In this document: in pieces, positions 2,555-62,247 of the stretch
Layout of the letters: every line of letters begins with the position of its first letter
How positions within the stretch are numbered: the stretch's first letter is position 1
Source of the DNA: Halobacterium sp. R2-5
GTDB taxonomy: Archaea; Halobacteriota; Halobacteria; Halobacteriales; Halobacteriaceae
DNA length: 64,000 nt
Assembly (NCBI RefSeq): GCF_011734195.1
Contig: NZ_JAANTH010000001.1
Coordinates: 1,426,001-1,490,000, forward strand
Direction: 5' to 3'
Translations under genes and position numbers: made by a program
The notes under the pieces: model-generated
What the model saw: only the letters and a program-made list of their open reading frames with translations
Told to the model about the DNA's origin: nothing
The model's database searches: none

Positions 2555-2562
2555 TTTTTATA
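2555..2562 (+). promoter_or_regulatory. TATA box of the five-DUF1508 gene
   Basis: TTTTTATA sits 23-30 nt before the ATG at 2585. This supports that ATG as a leaderless start over the in-frame GTG at 2573. Confidence 0.55.
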
Positions 2563-2584: not shown

Positions 2585-4087
2585 ATGTCGACAACTGGCC
2601 GCGGCGGTGGCGTGACTGAGTTCTACGAGCGACAGATCGGGCGAGCCGAGACCGAAGACGAGGTCTACGGCTACCTCGTGTTCGTCGCCGGTCTGGTGCT
2701 CGGTATCGTCGGAATCCTGCTGTTCCTGCCCAGCGAGTCCGCCGGCTCGATGCGAGAGTACAGCGTCGCGCTCGGGGCGGCCGGGTTCGCGCTGCTCATC
2801 GCCGGCCCCGTCATCCGGCTGCCGCTGCGACGGACCGCGACGACGGCCGTCTACCTCGGGTTGTTGCTGTGCGCGGCCGCAATCGCGTGGTTCCTCGCGG
2901 TGTTCCCGAACCAGTGGCAGACCGCGAGCGGCCACCAGGGCGTCATCACGCTGTACGTCGCTGGCGTCGCCGTCATCGGCGCGGGTGCCGTGCTCGTGCC
3001 GCTGCTCACGTCCACCCGGTCGACGCAGGAGACCGCGGCCGCGCGAGCGGAGAGTCAGGAGCGCGAGCGCCGCGTCGGGGAAGTCGAGAGCGAGCTCGAA
3101 GCCGCCGAACGCGCCCGCGACGAGCTCGAAGGTGAGCTCGCGTCCGTCCGGTCGAGTCAGGCGCAGTTCGAGCTCTACGAGGACAAGGCCGGGCAGTACC
3201 GCTGGCGGCTCCGCCACCGCAACGGCAACGTCGTCGCGGACGGCGGACAGGGGTACACCCGGAAGCACAACGCCCAGAAGGGCATGCAGAGCGTGCGTCG
3301 GAACGCGCTCGGCGCGGCGGCGATCCACGCCGAACCCGCCGCCGTCGACGAGGAAGCGGACCTCGACGAGCTCCCGATGCTCTCCGAGGAACCCGAGGAG
3401 AGCCGGGCGACCTTCGAAGTGTTCGAGGACAGCGGCGGCGAGTACCGCTGGCGACTCGTCCACGACAACGGCAACGTGCTCGCGGACAGCGGCGAGGGCT
3501 ACACGCGGCGCCGCGACGCCCGCCGCGCCGTCGAAGGCGTCCAGACCAACGTCGGGCCCGCGGAGTACCTCACGTTCGACCCGGCGTCGTTCGAAATCTA
3601 CCGCGACGTCGCGGGCGAGTGGCGGTGGCGGCTCGTCCACGAGAACGGGAACATCCTCGCGGACAGCGGCGAAGGGTACACGCGACGCCGCGACGCCCGC
3701 CGCGCCGTCGACCGCCTGCAGGACCGCGTCGGGGACGCCGAGTTCGACGTCTACGAGGACGCCGCCGACGAGTACCGCTGGCGGCTCACCGCGGAGAACG
3801 GCAACGTCGTCGCGGACAGCGGCGAGGGCTACACGCGCCGCGACGAGGCCGAGAACGCCGTCGAGCGCCTCCGGGAGTACGCGCCGGACGCCGACGCGCT
3901 CGACGTCGGGTTCGCGGTGTTCGAGGTGTTCGAGGACAGCGGCGGCGAGTACCGCTGGCGGCTCCGCCACCGCAACGGGAACATCATCGCCGACGGCGGC
4001 GAGGGCTACAGTTCGCGGTCGAAGGCCCGCGCCGGCATCGAGAGCGTGAAGCGCAACGCCCCCGGTGCGGACGTCGGCAGCGAGTGA
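2585..4087 (+). CDS. membrane protein with five tandem DUF1508 domains
   Basis: This 500-residue protein has three parts. Residues about 25-140 hold four transmembrane helices. Residues about 150-190 form a charged coiled coil with repeated ERE and ELE patterns. Five DUF1508 (YegP/HVO_2922-type) modules then start near residues 194, 275, 334, 385 and 444. Each module reads roughly F-x-V-F/Y-E-D ... YRWRL ... NGN-hydrophobic-hydrophobic-AD ... GEGYTRR ... ending in a helix. Single and double DUF1508 proteins are common and small; five on a membrane anchor is unusual. The soluble part probably faces the cytoplasm. Function is unknown, and a ligand-binding or stress-linked role would be inference only. 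A second DUF1508 protein lies at 61735-62247. Confidence 0.85.
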   Translation: MSTTGRGGGVTEFYERQIGRAETEDEVYGYLVFVAGLVLGIVGILLFLPSESAGSMREYSVALGAAGFALLIAGPVIRLPLRRTATTAVYLGLLLCAAAIAWFLAVFPNQWQTASGHQGVITLYVAGVAVIGAGAVLVPLLTSTRSTQETAAARAESQERERRVGEVESELEAAERARDELEGELASVRSSQAQFELYEDKAGQYRWRLRHRNGNVVADGGQGYTRKHNAQKGMQSVRRNALGAAAIHAEPAAVDEEADLDELPMLSEEPEESRATFEVFEDSGGEYRWRLVHDNGNVLADSGEGYTRRRDARRAVEGVQTNVGPAEYLTFDPASFEIYRDVAGEWRWRLVHENGNILADSGEGYTRRRDARRAVDRLQDRVGDAEFDVYEDAADEYRWRLTAENGNVVADSGEGYTRRDEAENAVERLREYAPDADALDVGFAVFEVFEDSGGEYRWRLRHRNGNIIADGGEGYSSRSKARAGIESVKRNAPGADVGSE

Positions 4088-4163
4088 CGGCAGGCCAGCC
4101 GACCGCTCTTTTGCGAACGTGTTCGGGCAATAGGTTTGGGTGCCCGTAGCGCGAAATGCGGAC

Positions 4164-4481
4164 GTGACAGACGACACTCCAGCCGTCGAACTCGCGGACG
4201 TTGACGCGCTGACCGAGACGCCCCACGCCGAGGTGTTCGAGACGCGCGACCCCCGGACCGTCCGGCTCGCCCTCGACGAGGGCGAAGAAGTGGCCGCCCA
4301 CCAGCACCCCGACTCGATGGTCGTCCTCTACGTGCTGTCGGGCGCCCTCGAACTCGGGCTCGGCGACGACACGTACGACCTCGACGCCGGTGACGGCGTC
4401 CGGTTCGACGGCGAGCAGGACGTCGCGCCGCGCGCCGTCGCGGACGCCGAGGCGCTGGTCGTGTTCGCGCCGAAGAGCTAG
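4164..4481 (+). CDS. single-domain cupin protein
   Basis: This 105-residue protein has the cupin double-stranded beta-helix pattern. The first motif is an EGEEVAAHQHP segment with two His, followed by a hydrophobic VLSGALELGLGD strand pair and DAGDGVRFDGEQDVAPRA as the second motif. Some metal ligands of the second motif are not obvious, so metal binding is uncertain and the substrate cannot be predicted. The start is the GTG at 4164; a GTG at 4140 in the same frame is the alternative. The 3' end overlaps the convergent TctA-like gene by 4 nt. Confidence 0.75.
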   Translation: MTDDTPAVELADVDALTETPHAEVFETRDPRTVRLALDEGEEVAAHQHPDSMVVLYVLSGALELGLGDDTYDLDAGDGVRFDGEQDVAPRAVADAEALVVFAPKS

Positions 4482-61597: not shown

Positions 61598-61702
61598 GGT
61601 CAGGTACAGGGCGCTGACACTCATCAAGGGCCGACATTTTCACGACGCCGTTCGTTGTTATTATGTGAGTGAAGCGCCGTGCGCCGCCGCGCTCCGCACC
61701 GA

Positions 61703-61709
61703 CGCTTAA
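61703..61709 (+). promoter_or_regulatory. TATA-like box of the amphi-Trp gene
   Basis: GCTTAAC lies 26-32 nt before the GTG at 61735 and supports that codon as start. Confidence 0.4.
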
Positions 61710-61734
61710 CACGGTTGCCCACCTACTCCGTCGT

Positions 61735-62247
61735 GTGCCCCGAGAATACGACTCCGAACGAACGGCGTCCCGCGAGGACGCGGCGGCAGTACTGGACGGC
61801 GTAGCTGACGGCCTGCGTGCCGGCTTGATACGGCTCGGCGACGGCGCGGACGCGATCACCGTCGACGCGCCCGAGGAACTGGAACTGGAAGTCGAACTGG
61901 AGGAAGAGGACGGCGAACTGGGCCTCGAACTCGAACTGGAGTGGCCCGCGCCGGACGGCGAGGGCGCCCCAATCGAAACGGCCGACGACCTGCCCGAAGA
62001 CGAACGTGACGGGGAAGTGGAAGAACCCGAACTCCCGGTGTCGGTCGGCGCCGCCGATGGCTCGGGAACGCTCGCGCGCTTCGAGGACGTGGCCGGCGAG
62101 TGGCGCTGGCGGCTCCGCCACCGCAACGGCAACGTCATCGCCACCGGCGGCGAGGGGTACACTCGCAAGTACAACGCCAGGAAGGGGCTGCGCAGCGTCG
62201 TAGCGAACGCACCCGGCGCGGACGTCGTCGACGAGTCGCTGGACTGA
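61735..62247 (+). CDS. amphi-Trp / DUF1508 fusion protein
   Basis: This 170-residue protein joins an N-terminal amphi-Trp-type domain (PREYDSERTASREDAAAVLDGVADGL, then acidic strands LELEVELEEEDGELGLELELEW) to one C-terminal DUF1508 module (FEDVAGEWRWRLRHRNGN, ATGGEGYTRKYNARKGLRSV). The start is GTG 61735; the longer frame from 61669 is not coding-like. A 33-nt stretch is identical to part of the five-domain gene at 2585-4087. Function is unknown. Confidence 0.82.
   Translation: MPREYDSERTASREDAAAVLDGVADGLRAGLIRLGDGADAITVDAPEELELEVELEEEDGELGLELELEWPAPDGEGAPIETADDLPEDERDGEVEEPELPVSVGAADGSGTLARFEDVAGEWRWRLRHRNGNVIATGGEGYTRKYNARKGLRSVVANAPGADVVDESLD

Follow-up and report, generated by a model that had tools for sequence, protein, structure and literature searches.

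The window, a 64-kb stretch of Halobacterium DNA analysed as a whole, holds a gene for a protein with a four-helix membrane domain, a coiled-coil helix and five DUF1508 modules (m1 to m5), here termed the array protein (Table 1). A TATA-like box precedes the gene; the pattern TTTATA-N18-26-ATG has a single match in the window, the array gene itself, where 0.03 is expected, and the box is also present in a congener (L096). Since the box lies so close to the ATG, is unique in the window and is conserved in the congener, the array gene is probably transcribed alone and without a leader. A small cupin-like ORF follows and adjoins the array in four Halobacterium species; an operon of the two genes is possible. 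Synteny was seen within the genus only (cysS, cupin and permease in Halobacterium), and a search for recurrent neighbours across genera found none. As neighbours are not conserved between genera, operon context was dropped as a functional clue, and no function is drawn from it.

Table 1. Coordinates of the array gene, its parts and the related ORFs discussed (positions in the window unless a locus is named)
Feature	Position	Strand	Remarks
TATA-like box TTTATA	2557..2562	+	28 nt upstream of array-gene ATG
Array gene	2585..4087	+	ATG 2585 to stop 4087 (stop included), 500 aa
DUF7139 four-helix membrane domain, aa 11-146	2615..3022	+	Pfam, AlphaFold2, hydropathy
Coiled-coil helix, aa 145-189	3017..3151	+	AlphaFold2, heptad test
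DUF1508 module 1, aa 195-241	3167..3307	+	Most basic of the five; Pfam
Acidic variable linker, aa 248-272	3326..3400	+	Net charge -11; mostly pLDDT <50
DUF1508 module 2, aa 277-323	3413..3553	+	Pfam
DUF1508 module 3, aa 336-382	3590..3730	+	59 aa past module 2 in 76/76 homologues
DUF1508 module 4, aa 387-433	3743..3883	+	m3-m4 model resembles two-repeat YegP
DUF1508 module 5, aa 446-492	3920..4060	+	58-59 aa past module 4 in 76/76 homologues
Cupin-like ORF	4140-4481	+	52 nt 3' of array gene
Amphi-Trp domain, then one DUF1508 module	61669-62247	+	Second DUF1508 protein in the window
One-module ORF	L152:6822-7160	-	3 nt past stop of three-module gene
TnpB-like ORF (by reading)	L216:3198-4454	-	Congener lacking array gene and cupin
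Glycosyltransferase family 2 + four DUF1508 modules	L158:5423-7732; L193:292-3468; L194:309-3536		Family scanned for L158, L193

The preliminary description of this DNA had proposed four membrane helices, five DUF1508 repeats and, between them, a coiled coil; each of these was recovered by independent means. Pfam found five DUF1508 stretches (PF07411), all strong, with a total of 276.9 bits (cut-off 22), and the module fold appeared in an AlphaFold2 model. The HVO_2922 profile of NCBIfam (NF041908, an equivalog) likewise matched five stretches, its 391 bits exceeding the cut-off of 90 through the summing of the five modules. The array protein (500 aa, membrane helices, five modules) is not the small, soluble, single-module HVO_2922 protein, and automatic naming by this match would mislabel it as one. 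DUF7139 (PF23600) was matched at aa 11-146 with 91.2 bits (cut-off 30); hydropathy has four peaks (aa 30-48, 61-79, 89-107 and 120-138), and AlphaFold2 predicts membrane helices at aa 24-47, 55-78, 83-106 and 118-141. The only fold relatives proposed for this domain were helical bundles with intermediate scores (LTC4 synthase, BAR domains), which is chance level for such bundles, and they were rejected.

Upstream of module 1 the heptad pattern was significant, being reached by 0/300 shuffles, and the model has a single helix there. Among relatives this segment spans 17-106 aa; stepwise change in units of seven was looked for and is absent. The model, built on 57 homologues with a mean pLDDT of 83.7, runs in the order four helices, a 45-residue helix and five beta-beta-beta-alpha modules, and its arrangement of these domains is uncertain because pTM is only 0.41. 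Separately, the single module of the second DUF1508 protein in the window is closest to module 1 of the array, and fusions resembling it are found elsewhere (L195).

Module number, spacing and split genes

The array had at first been taken for an oddity, a view that the homologues do not support: it belongs to a conserved haloarchaeal family, with a best match at E<=1e-60 in 131/391 Halobacteria genomes and exactly five modules in 76/76 intact homologues among the loci read. A few other loci are truncated, split or carry three or four modules; in L146 and L155 the five modules are in frame and the membrane part is out of frame, through decay, a frameshift or an error in sequencing. Of 380 modules, 379 have their nearest counterpart elsewhere at the same array position, from which we conclude that the five-module array formed once and that its members escaped homogenisation. 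Spacing is equally regular. Besides the fixed m2-m3 distance, m4-m5 spacing is 59 residues in 69 homologues and 58 in 7, m3-m4 spacing is 50-73 (median 51.5) and m1-m2 spacing is 75-137, giving a rule of variable, 59, about 51 and 59 residues to which the window protein conforms.

D6 and R12 are invariant in each of the five modules, and W13, R14, N19, G29 and Y30 are nearly so. Conservation is higher in the modules (0.70-0.76) than in the membrane domain (0.57) or the coil (0.36), and in comparisons with four congeners dN/dS was below 0.65 for every module, modules 1 and 3 being lowest. Since all modules keep their core residues and are conserved above anchor and coil, these values argue for five working surfaces.

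Six loci (L117, L153, L156, L157, L159 and L167) have an interrupted reading frame at the m3/m4 boundary. A separate ATG-started m4-m5 ORF lies downstream in the last five, with a TATA-like stretch ahead of it in L156, L157, L159 and L167; the two ORFs of L117 lie in different frames and overlap. In L152 a one-module ORF stands in place of the two-module half. Recoding at in-frame m3/m4 stops was considered and rejected: stop, spacer and new ATG, with the TATA-like stretch in four loci, make the break read as ordinary gene fission. Some species thus divide the array between a three-module membrane protein and a two-module soluble protein, and offer a natural two-component version of it.

Fixed counts (5 here and 13 in a sister family) and fixed 59-aa spacings would suit a structural spacer, whose length or stiffness depends on how many modules it has and how far apart they stand, and which binds little specifically. 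Such a ruler would be destroyed by two-gene splits at m3/m4 and blurred by an m1-m2 linker that varies between 75 and 137, and it leaves the conserved, position-specific module surfaces unaccounted for; we consider it the least likely of the readings weighed here.

Proposed pairing of modules

In the AlphaFold2 model (pTM 0.41), m3-m4 (model residues 330-444) superposes on the entire E. coli YegP (2k8e) with a VIA-align Z of 16.5 over 112 aa at 2.1 A, and module 1 matches HVO_2922 (6q2z) with a Z of 9.3 at 1.0 A over 60 aa; Foldseek agrees with the VIA-align matches. When m4-m5 was modelled alone, it matched single repeats only (YegP, Z 6.3 over 48 residues). The linker between the two modules then had a pLDDT under 50, and the strand at the C terminus of the full model (496-499) was lost. 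The 59-spaced doublets m2-m3 and m4-m5 had been candidates for YegP-like pairs and were rejected, as the separate m4-m5 model lacks YegP-like pairing and the YegP match of the full model falls on m3-m4. Since m3-m4 matches whole YegP and m4-m5 alone matches single repeats, the models make the joint of about 51 residues the YegP-like one and the 59-residue joints something else.

Covariation, a weak signal at 32 effective sequences, points the same way: among the 120 strongest inter-module pairs, 20 join m4 to m3, versus 5, 3 and 2 that join it to the others (3 to m5), and m5 has most of its pairs with m2 (16). This suggests a nested arrangement in which m3 pairs with m4 and m2 with m5, m1 being unpaired. 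Among solved structures, the one-module entries 6q2z and 2k7i contain two chains and the two-module entries 2k8e and 2k49 contain one. The conserved joints of the array would in this way indicate which modules belong together.

Distribution, mobility and relatives

The closest named loci (73-83% identity) are in Halobacterium sp. KA-4, H. bonnevillei and Halobacterium sp. CBA1126, followed by four Halosimplex species at 56-57%. Within Halobacterium the gene is present in 9/13 genomes, and in the tree these copies fall in three separate places: the window-type copy near g40/g68, L099 nested in the Halosimplex clade (support 1.00) and L100/L101 next to g30 (support 1.00). A plasmid of Haloarcula marina carries one five-module copy. 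In genome G319 the upstream flank is shared as far as window position 2513 and is followed by about 2 kb that contain a TnpB-like ORF and stand in for the array gene, the cupin and most of what comes after them. On this patchy presence, the tree placements, the plasmid copy and the replacement in G319, the array gene is accessory and has moved between genera as a whole unit; two thirds of genomes lack it, so many species can do without it. At the corresponding site of a congener lacking array gene, cupin and part of the gene after them, a TnpB-like ORF was read (L216). A search for a phage origin in 50,697 phage records returned no match to the array protein.

One or two modules had been called typical, which stands for described proteins and not for haloarchaea, where four- and thirteen-module proteins occur. 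Among 17 long-array loci (L176-L192), 16 carry 13 modules and one carries 12, so five is not the maximum among haloarchaeal DUF1508 proteins. This sister family, which occurs in many haloarchaeal genera, gave matches at E below 1e-100 in 36/145 genomes, the five-module protein being present as well in eight of these 36, and its anchor matched DUF7139 at 130 bits in the one locus tested. In Natrialba magadii a 13-module protein (NMAG_RS19800, plasmid pNMAG02) has a much shortened membrane part. DUF7139 itself is found in 376/391 Halobacteria genomes; most DUF7139 proteins read have a Cys-rich tail, and the two tested match DUF7140.

A near-universal DUF7139 with differing C-terminal parts (DUF7140, 5 DUF1508 or 13 DUF1508) would fit a ligand sensor, in which the modules bind a cytoplasmic signal (nucleotide, cyclic dinucleotide or metabolite) and pass a change through the coil to working DUF7139 helices. 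The glycosyltransferase with four modules after its catalytic part points the same way, as other synthases carry regulatory domains in that place. Against this reading, one or two modules would suffice for a switch, and the membrane domain is conserved less than the modules (0.57 vs 0.70-0.76). We regard the sensor as doubtful, though likelier than the other alternatives.

Proposed role and comparison with known systems

The reading that we favour over ligand sensor, polymer tether and spacer, at a probability of roughly 0.4, is that the array protein is a membrane-tethered, cytoplasm-facing multivalent scaffold, or adaptor, of YegP-type units. The evidence for its anatomy is strong, whereas its role in binding is our inference. 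The four DUF7139 helices would anchor the protein in the membrane, and since arginines sit in the loop joining helices 2 and 3, the positive-inside rule would place that loop, and hence both protein ends, inside the cell. Two or more chains probably associate through the coiled coil, although coil segments of just 17-34 residues in some homologues weaken an essential role for it. The five modules are taken as non-enzymatic beta-beta-beta-alpha units that are dimeric by nature. Within the chain, m3 and m4 would make one YegP-like pair, as modelled; modules 2 and 5, which flank it at a fixed distance, may be a further, nested pair, as the weak covariation hints; and module 1, beside the coil, would be free to pair across chains. 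With each module keeping its own surface, the array would dock its partner, be it a protein, an anionic polymer or a small molecule, in several copies at the inner face of the membrane.

The setting is likely to be stress or envelope physiology, judging by relatives: yegP is a multi-stress hub in E. coli (PMC9501238), yegP-like genes follow the DNA-damage regulators capK-capS in 57 cases (PMC13373217), perchlorate-induced genes are reported to include HVO_2922 (PMC12175516), and modules are fused to glycosyltransferases. The tie of relatives to DNA-damage regulation (PMC13373217) would also agree with a tether in which basic modules tie nucleic acid (DNA or RNA) or polyphosphate to the membrane. 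In acidic proteomes, module 1 has a median net charge of +4, at about the 94th percentile of segments from neighbouring genes, a background that may contain some false ORFs. However, modules 2, 3 and 5 carry almost no net charge, module 4 and every 13-module member are acidic, and no similarity to a nucleic-acid-binding family was seen, which makes the tether very unlikely.

Extending the adaptor reading, we can imagine that haloarchaea use a transferable fixed-count DUF1508 code (5 or 13) on a common DUF7139 anchor, in which nested YegP-type pairs within the chain and an unpaired module build a defined membrane lattice that recruits stress or envelope proteins. This extension is quite unlikely; if true, the fixed-count lattice would be a scaffold class not described so far.

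DUF7139 and DUF1508 are already in Pfam; what is new is the undescribed, conserved, fixed-count array. The preliminary description had set against itself the prospect of many proteins of the same architecture with a published function. Such proteins are indeed many, and the literature searched, most subscription journals lying outside it, yielded no function or ligand for the array protein and no papers on DUF7139 or COG3422. DUF1508/YegP proteins occur in bacteria and archaea, take part in stress responses and have solved structures, and we know of no job for them. Five copies kept in fixed order and spacing, cut at one joint, and a four-module spacing joined to a glycosyltransferase offer a way in to DUF1508 function, and gene-plus and gene-minus species within one genus open it to genetics in tractable haloarchaea.

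Among known systems, the DUF7139-DUF7140 proteins share the membrane domain family with the array protein and differ in having a C-terminal Cys-rich DUF7140 in place of DUF1508. The 13-module proteins (e.g. L176) likewise combine a DUF7139 anchor with a fixed-number DUF1508 array; unlike the array protein, they have more divergent, acidic modules, a short anchor linker and a uniform 56-59 spacing with one variable hinge at m5-m6. The glycosyltransferase fusions (L158, L193 and L194) share a four-module cassette with the array protein, its spacing of 59-53-59 in L193 and L194 matching the m2-m5 rule, but carry it on a membrane glycosyltransferase without DUF7139 or module 1. The HVO_2922/UPF0339 proteins (6q2z, 2k7i, 3bid) have the same module fold, module 5 aligning to 6q2z at E 4.7e-19, whereas they are soluble, 60-65 aa long and of one module, without membrane anchor or coil. 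YegP (2k8e, 2k49), both repeats of which superpose on m3-m4 of the model (Z 16.5), differs in being soluble and anchorless, with exactly two modules and only the spacing type of about 51 aa.
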